Origin: Saprospiraceae bacterium
GTDB taxonomy: Bacteria; Bacteroidota; Bacteroidia; Chitinophagales; Saprospiraceae
Direction: 5' to 3'
Assembly (NCBI GenBank): GCA_026985735.1
Contig: JALSPW010000190.1
Location: 1 to 35,263 of the forward strand
DNA: 35,263 nt
Shown here: in pieces, positions 19,991 through 26,323 of the stretch
Layout: each line of letters opens with the position of its first letter
Position numbering within the stretch: position 1 is the stretch's first letter
The notes under the pieces: model-generated
The model's database searches: none
Told to the model about the DNA's origin: nothing
Seen by the model: only the letters and a program-made list of their open reading frames with translations
Made by a program: the position numbers and the translations under genes

Positions 19991-21025
19991 ATGAATTTAA
20001 CCCAAAATGATATATTTGCAATTTACAAGCTACCCGATTCGAAAAACAGGATTACAATAATACAAAATTCAAGGGAAAATATTTTATTTGACAAATATTC
20101 ATTAAATAAAAAAGGGTTTGTTTTTTATCCTTTTTCTGTGATTAAACACAAACCCTTGTTCATAAATGCAGATGAAATTCATATCAATAAAGATTTTCAT
20201 CTTGAAGTAACAAGCATAGATTCTTCTTATGACATAATAGAAAACGAATATTTACAAAAAATAGATTTTTATATAAAAAAAATAAAAGCCGGATATAGAA
20301 AAATAGTGCTTTCGAGGACTAAATCCATCATTAACAACAATCTCAATTTATTTGATTTATTTAAAAAATTGGAAAACAGCTATCCAAATGCTATGATTTT
20401 TTTGGTAAATCACCCTGAAGCGGGAACGTGGATTGGAGCGACTCCCGAAATATTACTTGTAAAAGACAATAACAAAACAGAGACAATGGCATTAGCCGGA
20501 ACCCAATTTGTAGCCGATATCAAATCAGCAAACTGGGAATCAAAGGAATTGGACGAACAAAGGGTTGTAATGGAATTTATTGAAAATATTTTAAATAAAC
20601 ATAATATCCAATACAGTTCTAAAGGACCTTACACAAAGATCGCAGCAAAAAATAATGACGGATATTTAATTCACCTTGCGACAGATTATAGCATAACTGA
20701 TGTTAATAATTATTATAATATGATTTTGGATTTACACCCTACCCCTGCCGTATCAGGACTTCCAAAGAATAAATCAATTCAATTTATTTTGGAAAATGAA
20801 GGATATGATCGCAAATATTATACGGGATTTTTAGGTCCGGTGAATGTAATTAACGAAAATACTTTAAAGTTATTTGTAAATTTAAGAAGTATGGAAATTT
20901 TTAAAAACAAATTTCTTTTATATCTCGGAGGAGGCTTAAACAAGGATTCAATTCCACTTAAAGAATGGGAAGAAACCGAAAATAAAGCAAAGACTTTAAC
21001 GCAGATAATTAGTGGCTGTCTATAA
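19991..21025 (+). CDS. menF: Isochorismate synthase (MenF/EntC-type chorismate-binding enzyme)
   Basis: 344 residues, on the short side for the family; the N-terminal domain is reduced. The chorismate-binding domain has 'KIVLSRT', 'GTWIGATPEILL', 'MALAGTQF', 'ELDEQRVVMEFI', 'LHPTPAVSGLPK', 'YDRKYYTGFLGPV', 'VNLRSM', and a final 'LYLGGGLNKDSIPLKEWEET' segment. The HPTPAV and GLPK signatures fit isochorismate synthase rather than anthranilate synthase. It would start menaquinone synthesis from chorismate in the cytoplasm. No other men genes are in the window. It is the last gene of the dusB-cca operon, seven bases after cca. A hairpin begins eight bases after its stop. Confidence 0.9.
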   Translation: MNLTQNDIFAIYKLPDSKNRITIIQNSRENILFDKYSLNKKGFVFYPFSVIKHKPLFINADEIHINKDFHLEVTSIDSSYDIIENEYLQKIDFYIKKIKAGYRKIVLSRTKSIINNNLNLFDLFKKLENSYPNAMIFLVNHPEAGTWIGATPEILLVKDNNKTETMALAGTQFVADIKSANWESKELDEQRVVMEFIENILNKHNIQYSSKGPYTKIAAKNNDGYLIHLATDYSITDVNNYYNMILDLHPTPAVSGLPKNKSIQFILENEGYDRKYYTGFLGPVNVINENTLKLFVNLRSMEIFKNKFLLYLGGGLNKDSIPLKEWEETENKAKTLTQIISGCL

Positions 21026-21032
21026 ATTCAGA

Positions 21033-21088
21033 CCAACTGACCCGTTGGGAATTAAGGTGACCCAAAATTAATAAAATCATTTTATTAA
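21033..21088 (+). terminator. Possible 3'-end hairpins of the dusB-cca-menF operon
   Basis: CCAAC (21033-21037) pairs with GTTGG (21044-21048) around TGACCC, starting eight bases after the menF stop. Then a pure A/T palindrome with 10-base arms (21068-21077 and 21079-21088, centre C at 21078) follows. Neither is followed by a strong T tract on the plus strand, so terminator function is only suggested. Confidence 0.3.
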
Positions 21089-21098
21089 AAATATTTAA

Positions 21099-21436
21099 CT
21101 TTTGTCTTGTTACATGACTTAATGGTCTTGACGAAGAAGAGAACCAAAAGAGTAAACCTCTTTTGGTAATGAAGGAACCGCTACATCAGTAGCGGGGGGA
21201 CTGATAAAAACATAACAGATTAATGCTGCGGGTATTGCTTGGCTTCATGATTAATAACCTTTCCAAGTTTAGTCTCTAAGGATACAATACCATTAATTAA
21301 TACAAAATAGTCCGCTGTAAATCATTTTTCGATAATTGTAGGTAGGACTTGAAAGCATGCGATAGCGTGACTTCAAAACCGGTTTTTTAACTCATAATTC
21401 ATCATTCACCATTCATAATTAAATTTCTCTTTTGTC
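21099..21436 (+). ncRNA. Hairpin-rich intergenic segment, candidate structured RNA or repeat element
   Basis: No ORF is found. Visible complementary pairs, in order, are: ACCAAAAGAG/CTCTTTTGGT (21143-21152 with 21158-21167); CCGCTAC/GTAGCGG (21178-21184 with 21189-21195, tetraloop ATCA); and GGTATTG/CAATACC (21231-21237 with 21285-21291), the last enclosing CTTGG/CCAAG (21238-21242 with 21263-21267) and TTAG/CTAA (21269-21272 with 21276-21279). AGTCC/GGACT (21309-21313 with 21345-21349) and CATGC/GCGTG with a GATA loop (21356-21369) follow. The octamer CTTTTGTC occurs at both ends (21099 and 21429). The segment is more GC-rich than its surroundings. It could be an RNA gene, an IS or retroelement remnant, or a repeat element; strand is uncertain. 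Confidence 0.4.
21391..21436. repeat. Dispersed AT-rich repeat (ATTCAT...CTTTTGTC type), left copy
   Basis: Bases 21391-21420 consist of variants of the unit 'attcat(a/c)att', followed by CTTTTGTC at 21429 and three tandem 'tctcaat' units (to about 21460). The same word order recurs at 26967-27011. Confidence 0.55.
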
Positions 21437-21544
21437 ATTCTCAATTCTCAATTCTCAATTAATTGTTTTGTTCTATCAACTATTAAAATTATTGTTATTA
21501 GGAATCAGTTGTTCTAAATTTTCAAAAAGACACTCATTACAAAA

Positions 21545-21578
21545 AAAATCAAGTTTCCCCAATGAGAAACTTGATTTT
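21545..21578 (-). terminator. Terminator of the giant CHU_C-domain gene
   Basis: A perfect 13-base stem: AAAATCAAGTTTC (21545-21557) pairs with GAAACTTGATTTT (21566-21578) around an eight-base loop. On the minus strand it is followed by an eight-T run (21548-21541). It lies 165 bases past the stop at 21743, so the 3' untranslated region is long. The plus strand also ends in T-rich sequence, so it may work in both directions. Confidence 0.7.
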
Positions 21579-21742
21579 AAGTTTTACTCATAATTTTCAT
21601 TTAACTAATATACCTTAGTATTAAAAAAAAATTATGCATAAAACAAATATGAAAAACTCTACTCTTTTAAAACCAAAAATAATAAATTTATTAATATAAA
21701 TCAATTTTTCACATTAAAAGCATTTAATTTAGAAAATTGTTT

Positions 21743-24700
21743 TTATCTTATCAATGTAATAGCACCTCTATATAAAATAACCCTACCATCGAGAAATACC
21801 ACTTCAACAAGATATACATATACTCCCGGATTTACCCTTTTCCCTTTGAACCGGCCATCCCACGAAACCGTATTAGCTGCCGAAGGATTCAAGTTTTGTT
21901 CTTGATACATTAATTCACCCCAACGGTCATAAATTTTCAAATAATTTATTCTTTCCACTCCTTTACCTATTGTCAATCTAAATTCATCATTTAATCCATC
22001 CCCGTCAGGTGTGAAAATATTGGGAATATACACATTACGTGAAGTATTGACAATAACATATAGTGCCCCGGTAGAAGTACATCCGTTTTGATCAATAACA
22101 GTAGCATAAATAGTATCGTTGGCATATCCTTCCAGTTCAACTTCAGTTTTCAAATTATTAAGAAAATGATATTTGAAATTAACTGTATCAATATCCCAGA
22201 TAACTTGTGAAATATTGGTATTTGTATTCAAATAAATAGTTTGAGGATCTCCCAAATCCAATTGTACTTCATCACCAAGATCAACAATAATTTCTTCGGG
22301 TTGGGAAATCAAAATTTCCTGTTCTGATTTACATCCTTCCGAATCAAACACAGAAACAAGATAAGGTTGATCGCTAGCATAAACCTGTTTGCATGAATCT
22401 ACGGGCAAAATTGCTCCACCATTAACACTAAATGTATAATCGGGGCCTGCACCACCATAAACAGTATCTATATATATACATGTCGGATCTCCAAAACATA
22501 ATATATCCTGAGCTTGAACAGGTTTAAAGACTATAGGTTGCTGACCTTTTACTTCATAACTTACATAATCAGAACATCCCTTATAGTCTGAAACAGTAAC
22601 AGTATAAATTCCCTGAGCCAAGTTAGCTGCAACTTTAGAATCAGAAACATCCGGGCTCCAATTGAAAGTGTATTGTCCATCGGTATTTCCTCCTGAAAAA
22701 TTCACAGACACCTGACCTGAATTCAATCCCGAACAATTGACATCTTTAGTATTTGCAGAATCTATTGACACAATCAATTTTTCCGGTTGAATTAATGTTA
22801 TAGAGTCCATGATTGAACATAGATTTGCATCTGTTATCTCGATATGATACGTACCAGCGCAAAGATCTACAGCGACAGCACCTGTTTGTCCTGTTTCTTG
22901 CCATTTATAAAAATATGCAGTATTATTTCCTCCTTTTGCTTTAACAATGATACTTCCGTCACAGTCGCCATAGCAAGTAGGTTTTATTGTTTTGGTTTCC
23001 AAAAGATCCAGCGTAAGTTTTTCCGGAACGGCTACTTCAAACGAATCTGACTTAATACATGAATTTCCATTTACCGTATTATAATACACAGAGAAGTGAT
23101 TTTTTCCCCCGGGCAAATCTTTTAATGTAATAGTACTGCCAACTTTATTAGTTCCGTTATCCAATGTAAATACATACAACCCAGATGGATTATCACCTCC
23201 TGAGACCTGAATTATAGCACTTCCGTCACTATGCTGACCATCATTACATGAGATACCTTGCACATCAAGGACATTTATTTCAATTGGAGGCGCACCGGGA
23301 ACTTCAATAGAATCAACCGAACTACATCCAGAATCATCCGAAATAGTAACAACATAAGTACCTGCAGGTACATCATTAATACAAGCCCCTGATAAACCAT
23401 TGTTCCAATCAAAAGTATATCCACTTCCTCCTCCGTCAATATTAATACAAACCGAACCACCCAGTCCACCTGTTTCACCGGGGCCACATTCTGAAGGAGT
23501 TGCCTGGGTAGTATAAGTAAACGGTTGAGGTTCCGGTATTACAATTGTATCCGTAACCGTACATTTATTATCAACTATAATCACGATATAAGTCCCCGCA
23601 CCGACATTTGAAAGAACATTAGTAGTGCTCCCAAGATCAATACCAAGAGTATCTGCCCATCTATAAATTATAGGTCCATAATCACTAGATGCTTCCACAA
23701 CAATATCCGTTGTTGCAGTTGCATCACAACCAAGTAAATCAAATTTAATAGTATCTATATTCAATAATCCGGGTGCTTTGACAATGTCAAAAACAACAGT
23801 TGTATCACAACCATTTGCATCTGCAATATTGACGGTATATACCCCTTCCGACAAATCATAAAACACGTGATTTGTACCATTAACTATGATAGTATCCCTC
23901 CCTATTCCTGAAAGAGCATAAGGTTTAGTACCACCATTGATGCTAAAATTAGCATAAGCCAATTGAGTTGAGGAGCACCCTACATCCCCTTTCTTAATAT
24001 TGACTCCTATGGGTGGAGGATCAAATAGTCTTACCGTATCATATTCAAAGCAGCCTGTAGATTGTTCATATATCTTAACTATATATCGCCCACTACCAAG
24101 ATTATTAACATAAAACATGTCAGTTCCCAATTTCTGAACATCACTATAAGGAGGATGAGGAAATACAGGAAATTCCAAATTGAAATTATCATTAGGATAT
24201 CCTAAAAGGTTTGCTTCATAAGACAACCATCCGTTTTCATCCCCAAAACATGTTGGATCTTGGGAGTTTCTATTAAGATTCATGGTATATTTTTCATCAA
24301 CAAAAACTGAATCCGTTTCATTACACCATGATTTATCACCGTAAACTTTTATATAATTCCATCCGGGAGATGCATTATTGAATATACTTGTTTTAGGAGT
24401 TTTTTCATTGAAAGTATTATTTTCGCTTTGCCATTCAAAAGTATAGTAACCATTTGCATCTTTATTGCTTCCTGAAGCTGTTGCCAAAAGTCTTGCATCA
24501 TTCAATCCTTTACAAGAAGCATCATCAAGTTTTTGTAAATCCAAAATCAACTTGGATGTTTCCAAATTGATAACCGTATCGGTTTTGCATCCACTTGTTT
24601 TATCCTCTATGGTAACGCCATATATTCCATTTCCCAAACCGGCCAATGTATCCGTATCAAAAATATTATTTGACCATTTGATATTATACGGATAGAAGGC

Positions 24701-26323
24701 ACCGTCTTTAACTTTAACTATTATTTTTCCATCGTCATAACCAAAACAAGTCGGAGCTTTAACAAAAATAGAATCAAACACTAAAGGCGGACTAGCGGAT
24801 ACATAAACTCCATAATCTTTAAAATCCCCATTTGTATCGGTGACTTCTATTGTGTAAGAACCCGGATACAATCCTTTGACTATTACTTCTGTCTTTTCAT
24901 CGGAAATCGTACCTGACTGAACAATTGTTCCTCCAAGATCTTTTATCACATAAGAATAAGGAGCTACCCCATTATAAACTTTAAAGAAAATAGAAGACTC
25001 CGCTACATTTGTTTCGGAACCACAATAAGTTGCACTGATATAGAGTCCGTCAGGAGGATCAATGCATATTAACCCCGGTTCAGTATTAGGATAAAAATCT
25101 TTATTATCAAAAGTAGCTTGAAATTTAGACATAATAATAGGAGAACAATCCCCTATCTTTCCAACAAGTTTAAAACAAATATTTACAATTTCCTGATTAT
25201 CGGGAATCGGTCCTGGATTTCGATTCCAATCCAATATCAACAACCCTGGAGAGATTCTATAAATAGTATAATTATCAGGATATATACTTATAATATCAAC
25301 AAATTCCAACACTGTAGGATCATAGTCGATTCTACCAAAAATATATTCTGAATTTTCAAAATCTCTCACTCTAAGAGTGACACAAATAGTTTCGTTTAAC
25401 TTTCCGGATAGAGTATCTAAATAAAGCGTTGGATTAAGACCGTTCGAAATACTCATTTTATTAGTATTGGAACATGATACTCCATCTGAGATTATAACCT
25501 TGTATTCACCAAATCTCGGAAATTTAACCACTACCCTGTCATTGTGAGTAATATTTGGAGTTAAAACCTTCCCCCTATAATCCTGTGACGGATTATCAAA
25601 ATCATAAACATCAATACTTGTATAATTAACATTTTTATTATCATGAAATTTATAATATTCAGGCAAACCACCTTGTACCACAAAACTTGCCTGCAACGAA
25701 TCTCCATTTACTTTATATTGAAAATCGGAAATAGTAATCGGATTCAGATAAACAACAGGAAAAGCTTCATTAATATTTGCTTTTACACAGGGACCGTTAT
25801 TTTCATGATACCCTCTTTCTCCTTTTCTTTGATCCACAGTGATTGGTGCATAATACATTAAAGTCGGATTACCTGTACCATTGACAGCATTATTAAATGG
25901 AGTGAACCCTGTATAAAAACTATTCTTAAACAAAGCATCTCCATCGAGGTCATCAACTGAAATCATCATATCGGGATCTCCATTGAATCTAAAGATATTA
26001 TCTGTCTTAATGGCAATGAGATTATCACCTGAGACAGTAGGTTTACTTTTGTACCATCCGTACCCAATTCCGGCAGGAGTAGCCGGAACAGGATCACTTG
26101 ATACATTATAATCATCATTGTGGTCCAAATAAAATCTATCCTCCCAACATAAGAAAATAGTATCAGAAAGTTCATGTCTGTTACTCTGCCCAACGAAACT
26201 ACTAATCTTATTAATAGTTCCGGGATCATTATTGCATTGAGCATTAGAATACCAAGTAAAAAACAGAACAAATACCCCACTTAAAACCAGTTCGGTCTGT
26301 AATCTATAGAATTTAAATTTCAT
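21743..26323 (-). CDS. Giant secreted T9SS-type protein: cohesin-like domain, SprB-like repeats, CHU_C C-terminal domain
   Basis: 1526 residues. Signal peptide about 1-29 ('TWYSNA' before Gln). Residues about 298-422 resemble a cohesin-like domain: 'ETICVTLRVRDF', 'GRIDYDPTVLEFVDI', 'PDNQEIVNICFKLVG'. From about 520 to 1380 there are roughly ten SprB-like repeats of 70-90 residues. Each opens with a Cys near 'PTCFGDxxG' or a variant, passes a 'Y.F.W' strand, and ends 'G.Y.V.I.D..GC'. Examples are 'APTCFGYDDGK', 'KPTCYGDCDGS' and 'DVNCSGLNSGQ'. Residues about 1431-1526 are the gliding-motility-associated C-terminal domain: 'VYIPNIFTPDGDGLNDEF', 'LKIYDRWGELMYQ', 'WDGRFKGKRVNPGVYVYLV'. That domain marks T9SS export and surface attachment. 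It is likely a motility or binding adhesin. It stands alone, with a terminator after it and a -7 element 194 bases upstream. Confidence 0.93.
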   Translation of the reverse strand: MKFKFYRLQTELVLSGVFVLFFTWYSNAQCNNDPGTINKISSFVGQSNRHELSDTIFLCWEDRFYLDHNDDYNVSSDPVPATPAGIGYGWYKSKPTVSGDNLIAIKTDNIFRFNGDPDMMISVDDLDGDALFKNSFYTGFTPFNNAVNGTGNPTLMYYAPITVDQRKGERGYHENNGPCVKANINEAFPVVYLNPITISDFQYKVNGDSLQASFVVQGGLPEYYKFHDNKNVNYTSIDVYDFDNPSQDYRGKVLTPNITHNDRVVVKFPRFGEYKVIISDGVSCSNTNKMSISNGLNPTLYLDTLSGKLNETICVTLRVRDFENSEYIFGRIDYDPTVLEFVDIISIYPDNYTIYRISPGLLILDWNRNPGPIPDNQEIVNICFKLVGKIGDCSPIIMSKFQATFDNKDFYPNTEPGLICIDPPDGLYISATYCGSETNVAESSIFFKVYNGVAPYSYVIKDLGGTIVQSGTISDEKTEVIVKGLYPGSYTIEVTDTNGDFKDYGVYVSASPPLVFDSIFVKAPTCFGYDDGKIIVKVKDGAFYPYNIKWSNNIFDTDTLAGLGNGIYGVTIEDKTSGCKTDTVINLETSKLILDLQKLDDASCKGLNDARLLATASGSNKDANGYYTFEWQSENNTFNEKTPKTSIFNNASPGWNYIKVYGDKSWCNETDSVFVDEKYTMNLNRNSQDPTCFGDENGWLSYEANLLGYPNDNFNLEFPVFPHPPYSDVQKLGTDMFYVNNLGSGRYIVKIYEQSTGCFEYDTVRLFDPPPIGVNIKKGDVGCSSTQLAYANFSINGGTKPYALSGIGRDTIIVNGTNHVFYDLSEGVYTVNIADANGCDTTVVFDIVKAPGLLNIDTIKFDLLGCDATATTDIVVEASSDYGPIIYRWADTLGIDLGSTTNVLSNVGAGTYIVIIVDNKCTVTDTIVIPEPQPFTYTTQATPSECGPGETGGLGGSVCINIDGGGSGYTFDWNNGLSGACINDVPAGTYVVTISDDSGCSSVDSIEVPGAPPIEINVLDVQGISCNDGQHSDGSAIIQVSGGDNPSGLYVFTLDNGTNKVGSTITLKDLPGGKNHFSVYYNTVNGNSCIKSDSFEVAVPEKLTLDLLETKTIKPTCYGDCDGSIIVKAKGGNNTAYFYKWQETGQTGAVAVDLCAGTYHIEITDANLCSIMDSITLIQPEKLIVSIDSANTKDVNCSGLNSGQVSVNFSGGNTDGQYTFNWSPDVSDSKVAANLAQGIYTVTVSDYKGCSDYVSYEVKGQQPIVFKPVQAQDILCFGDPTCIYIDTVYGGAGPDYTFSVNGGAILPVDSCKQVYASDQPYLVSVFDSEGCKSEQEILISQPEEIIVDLGDEVQLDLGDPQTIYLNTNTNISQVIWDIDTVNFKYHFLNNLKTEVELEGYANDTIYATVIDQNGCTSTGALYVIVNTSRNVYIPNIFTPDGDGLNDEFRLTIGKGVERINYLKIYDRWGELMYQEQNLNPSAANTVSWDGRFKGKRVNPGVYVYLVEVVFLDGRVILYRGAITLIR

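Follow-up and report, generated by a model that had tools for sequence, protein, structure and literature searches.

The intergenic segment downstream of the menF-like gene on contig JALSPW010000190.1 of a Saprospiraceae bacterium (assembly GCA_026985735.1; "the window" below is the whole analysed stretch of 35,263 nt) is very probably one copy of a non-autonomous mobile repeat bounded by terminal inverted repeats (TIRs), a MITE of the Transposase_29 (PF21804) insertion-sequence family. This assignment is based on the inverted repeats, the dispersed copies, an empty site in a related genome (G004) and one end that is homologous to an end of Transposase_29 insertion sequences. The initial annotation had proposed an undescribed structured RNA or element at 21099-21436. 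The word "element" has held; a discrete RNA gene has not, in view of the mosaic dispersed repeat, the transposon ends and the unconserved global fold. The contrary outcome allowed for at that time, a decayed insertion sequence, comes close to the MITE reading with its link to an insertion sequence of the Transposase_29 family. The assignment removes a candidate new structured RNA as false and explains where many hairpin-rich stretches between the genes of two Saprospiraceae genomes come from; it also ties a MITE and its inverted-repeat sequence to the Transposase_29 family.

The element and its insertion site

The features of the locus are collected in Table 1. The element starts one base past the menF stop codon, and no ORF of at least 60 aa is present between 21026 and 21742, in agreement with the ORF-free stretch described initially; the large SprB/CHU_C gene at 21743-26323 lies on the strand opposite to the menF-like gene. 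The actual unit is longer than first delimited and extends over 21027-21518. Its TIRs are imperfect, with the consensus TTCAGAMCAACTGACCC. The 5' boundary is sharp across copies, and the far end bears the inverted form of the same word. The window copy of the 5' block lacks one C of the family consensus. Copies with two ends span 217 to 738 nt, a range from which a single row of 1128 nt was excluded as a presumed chance pairing. The word CTTTTGTC, regarded initially as the boundary at both ends, occurs six times on the plus strand and three times on the minus strand of the window, and at its first site 11 of the 13 other copies covering it read TTTTTTGCC. GC-rich words do stand out locally from AT-rich surroundings; overall, the GC content of the whole element equals that of the window (both 0.32), with 0.36 in the core and 0.22 in the tail.

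Table 1. Features of the element and its locus (positions in the window)
Feature	Position	Strand	Remarks
menF-like gene (chorismate-binding enzyme)	19991..21025	+	PF00425, E 4e-48; host gene upstream of the insertion
Probable MITE, single complete copy	21027..21518	+	492 nt, inverted repeat to inverted repeat; TIR pairing, dispersed copies, syntenic place in G004 without the element
5' terminal inverted repeat TTCAGACCAACTGACCC	21027..21043	+	
5' block	21027..21065	+	Homology to the end of Transposase_29 insertion sequences on the C-terminal side
Hairpin 1	21143..21167	+	10 bp, loop 5
Hairpin 2	21178..21195	+	7 bp, loop 4
3' hairpin module (hairpin E)	21346..21382	+	37 nt; spread outside the MITE too
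AT-rich simple-sequence tail	21383..21501	+	Short matches to the tail in other relatives
3' terminal inverted repeat, inward reading TTTAGAACAACTGATTC	21502..21518	-	14 of the 20 outermost bases identical to the 5' end
Terminator-like hairpin	21545..21578	.	Common to G004; outside the element

Both flanks of the element are retained in G004. The upstream flank (window 20703-21026) corresponds to L163 2213-2537 with 77.9% identity, and the downstream flank (window 21542-22600) to L163 2533-3584 with 79.3%. The region 21027-21518 has no match at the syntenic G004 place, where the end of menF and the side of the terminator-like hairpin abut. The G004 locus is an empty site for the whole element, in a genome whose adjacent menF orthologue has 70% protein identity rather than in a sister strain; the 23 nt from the 3' inverted repeat to the shared flank (21519-21541) are also without a G004 counterpart. 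No target-site duplication above shuffled pairs was detected among 22 TIR pairs, some of them spurious (223 of 1000 shuffles scored as high). According to a review of prokaryotic MITEs (PMC10969869), their direct repeats wane over time, and the absence of a duplication consequently lowers the MITE claim without excluding it.

Since the terminator-like hairpin common with G004 sits beyond the insertion, menF transcripts should continue into the element, which would be expected to lie within the menF 3' UTR as a structured segment of roughly 500 nt, rather than to form an RNA gene of its own. If the hairpins affect mRNA 3' ends, 3' UTRs derived from transposons could be studied here as a test case. 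The possibility of an integron attC site was assessed by visual inspection and rejected: the CCAAC/GTTGG pair shares bases with the inverted repeat and encloses a loop of 6 nt.

Copies, modules and the Transposase_29 family

The repeat is dispersed between the genes of the source bacterium and of one close relative. In its own genome (G000), at least 62 pieces match the query 21026-21480, a lower bound since 40 of the 212 candidates were scored, and some of these pieces comprise the tail only. The 360-nt core has at least 47 matches in the congener G001, a Saprospiraceae MAG (40 of 130 candidates scored). Matches were obtained in 17 of 60 relatives, the long ones in G000 and G001 only, and the rest short and mostly to the AT-rich tail. 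Hairpin E, with up to three mismatches, is present in 57 copies in G000, 48 in G001 and none in the other 38 of the 40 genomes; the corresponding numbers for the 5' block are 16, 10 and none in the other genomes examined. A scan of public sequences, which may pass over records close to the genome of the window, detected the hairpin in one assembly only, the Saprospiraceae MAG JALSPK01 (30 stretches), which to judge from its contig numbers and positions is probably G001, and the viral contigs scanned for the 3' hairpin gave no matches. None of the 28 examined 5' ends lies inside an ORF of at least 120 aa; a single one reaches a few bases into the end of an ORF. As is characteristic of MITEs, the many dispersed copies carry no transposase gene.

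Internal blocks are swapped or lost among the copies. In particular, among the 67 copies of hairpin E with enough flanking sequence, the 5' block is found upstream in 11, a CAAATAAATTTG-type hairpin upstream in 26, and the 3' inverted repeat downstream in 18. The interior is a patchwork of hairpin modules, and one of these modules spreads outside the MITE as well.

Several further arrangements were observed. At L055:1450-1690, about 80 bp of the interior block that contains hairpins 1 and 2 stand head to tail in three copies, and near L087 position 1793 a pair of elements that share their inverted repeat and differ in their interiors are nearly joined head to head. The hairpin module GTTTCAAATAAATTTGAAACGCC (sister form TCGCAAATAAATTTGCGA) recurs in intergenic positions of G000 and G001 and precedes the 37-nt hairpin at L053, L061, L063, L077, and L093; the 26 of 67 hairpin E flanks mentioned above have a hairpin of this type directly upstream. 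A second inverted-repeat-like word, TTCAGACCAAGTACCCC, follows CTAATGAAGCAC at L187:2160, L097:1142, and L075:1382, both inside and beside elements. Simple-sequence tails of words like CATAATTCATCATTCACC and CTTTGAACTTTGTCC come after many copies (window 21383-21470; L028, L047, L052, and L060), and tails of the CATAATTCATCATTCACC kind give short matches in other relatives.

A variant of the inverted repeat, TTCAGAACACCTGACCC, occurs eight times in G002 and twice in G004 (up to three mismatches from the query). In G002, each of the eight sites lies no more than about 300 nt from where a contig ends, which is what a multi-copy element would be expected to show. One end of the element bearing this variant runs into the N-terminus of a transposase and the other into its C-terminus. 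Pfam family PF21804 (Transposase_29) is matched at these places, namely G002:C126 (E 7.5e-21), G004:C348 (E 1.9e-81, with stops), G004:C580 (E 4.6e-12), and G001:C150 (E 2.5e-6). The family consensus of the 5' block agrees with the outermost 40 nt beside the transposase C-terminus at 35 positions in G002, 36 in G001, and 31 in G004:C348; for the 23 bases inward of the inverted repeat the agreement is 20, 21, and 19, respectively. The matching ends belong to insertion sequences or their relics, each directly behind the C-terminus of a Transposase_29 gene. Ends in common with an autonomous element, another mark of MITEs, were thus found via G002, G001, and G004, and none in the element's own genome. 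At G004:C569, a pair of similar inverted repeats flanks another Transposase_29 fragment.

Every copy of Transposase_29 encountered is either incomplete or decayed, and NCBIfam models gave weak matches only on the transposase pieces, far under their cut-offs. The Transposase_29 relic at G003:C11 has no TIR at three mismatches, and no PF21804 match is present in the element's own genome (94% complete, 321 contigs). Given the state of the copies, the relic without a TIR and the lack of a match in the own genome, mobilization in trans is a step that we infer: a transposase acting on the inverted repeats would have put the element between menF and its terminator. The element may no longer move, since its own assembly yielded no transposase of the family.

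Hairpins, folding and rival explanations

One rival explanation is a separate non-coding RNA with a structure of its own, or a cis-regulatory RNA, in either case with conserved folding. The plus strand is in line with it, reaching -80.1 kcal/mol where shuffles average -65.2 (z -2.90; one shuffle in 100 folds equally well), compared with z -1.81 for the minus strand (4 of 100). The 10-bp and 7-bp hairpins reported in the initial annotation are indeed present, and in 20 aligned copies 97.6% of the cells of hairpins 1 and 2 are paired, with six two-sided changes, a number that none of 500 shuffles reached. In 42 distinct copies of hairpin E, 93.3% of cells are paired and nine are two-sided (again 0 of 500). 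However, four of the six changes in hairpins 1 and 2 come from row C225 and two from row C6 of the 20, and so may represent two events, and eight of the nine two-sided cells of hairpin E fall at one pair, its two pairs with a two-sided change being equalled in 293 of 500 shuffles. The closed multi-branch set initially described fails: its CAATACC arm occurs in 3 of the 14 aligned copies spanning the place (3 of the 20 rows), once as CAATATT, and two-sided changes are absent from all of its pairs. RNAalifold retained only hairpins 1 and 2, and the internal blocks are freely lost. The absence of a match to known RNAs was confirmed, with no Rfam match at gathering level in the window, six sub-threshold matches at E up to 10, all far under the gathering scores, and no tRNA or tmRNA predicted by ARAGORN. 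Compensatory changes hold for the separate hairpins alone and not across the global fold; these small hairpins are maintained, whereas the global fold is not conserved. Moreover, palindrome correction could create the same paired changes. We therefore regard a structured RNA of this kind as very unlikely. It is also improbable that the hairpin modules are under RNA selection as an exchangeable, transposon-borne kit spread by this genus behind many genes, where they would influence the stability or termination of mRNA in the way suggested for BOX elements. MITE transcripts commonly form stable stem-loops (PMC10969869), and the hairpins thus need no new RNA class.

Two other kinds of dispersed repeat have to be weighed against the MITE. 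In a BOX-like or NIME-like modular intergenic repeat, the hairpin modules would be dispersed and recombined through a mechanism of their own, with the Transposase_29-like ends as just one module type among several. The mosaic copies agree with this, as do the alternative upstream neighbours of hairpin E (the 5' block or a different hairpin) and the 80-bp tandem of an interior stretch, whereas the whole copies have inverted repeats and an end common to the element of a transposase gene. We consider such a repeat possible, although with rather low probability, and for the window copy it does not conflict with a MITE. A REP-like repeat mobilized by IS200/IS605 or RAYT could account for the abundance of hairpin E by itself, like that of REPs, and two Y1 transposases are encoded in G001. 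Nevertheless, the host genome G000 has no Y1_Tnp match, for which reason the idea was rejected, and G002, G003, and G004 have Y1_Tnp without the repeat. IS200/IS605 elements are not known to have inverted repeats, and the whole copies have them together with the Transposase_29 end, so that a REP-like origin is highly implausible.

Comparison with known systems

MITEs are an already known class. In the literature searched (Bacteroidetes/MITE and Saprospiraceae/MITE), no paper on the MITE family of the window was found among the titles listed, and searches for "Transposase_29" or "PF21804" gave nothing relevant and one unrelated paper. Like the prokaryotic MITEs reviewed in PMC10969869, the element is small, AT-rich, bounded by TIRs, intergenic, able to form stem-loops, without a transposase, and related to an insertion sequence; the window family differs from them in the lack of a detected target-site duplication and in its strongly mosaic interior. 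The BrickBuilt MITE of Porphyromonas gingivalis (PMC4596501) is likewise intergenic, belongs to Bacteroidota and has a leader and a tail around variable repeats; it has a 23-nt minisatellite of its own, and the resemblance drawn here is one of architecture. Pneumococcal BOX elements (PMC3049150) are also modular, hairpin-rich dispersed repeats with optional internal modules. They are from another host phylum, one end of the window family is tied to a named transposase family, and here too the likeness drawn is one of architecture. Unlike the Transposase_29 (PF21804) insertion sequences of G002 and G004, the window element is without a transposase gene; it shares with them the TIRs (there TTCAGAACACCTGACCCC) and, at one end only, about 20 nt of subterminal sequence.
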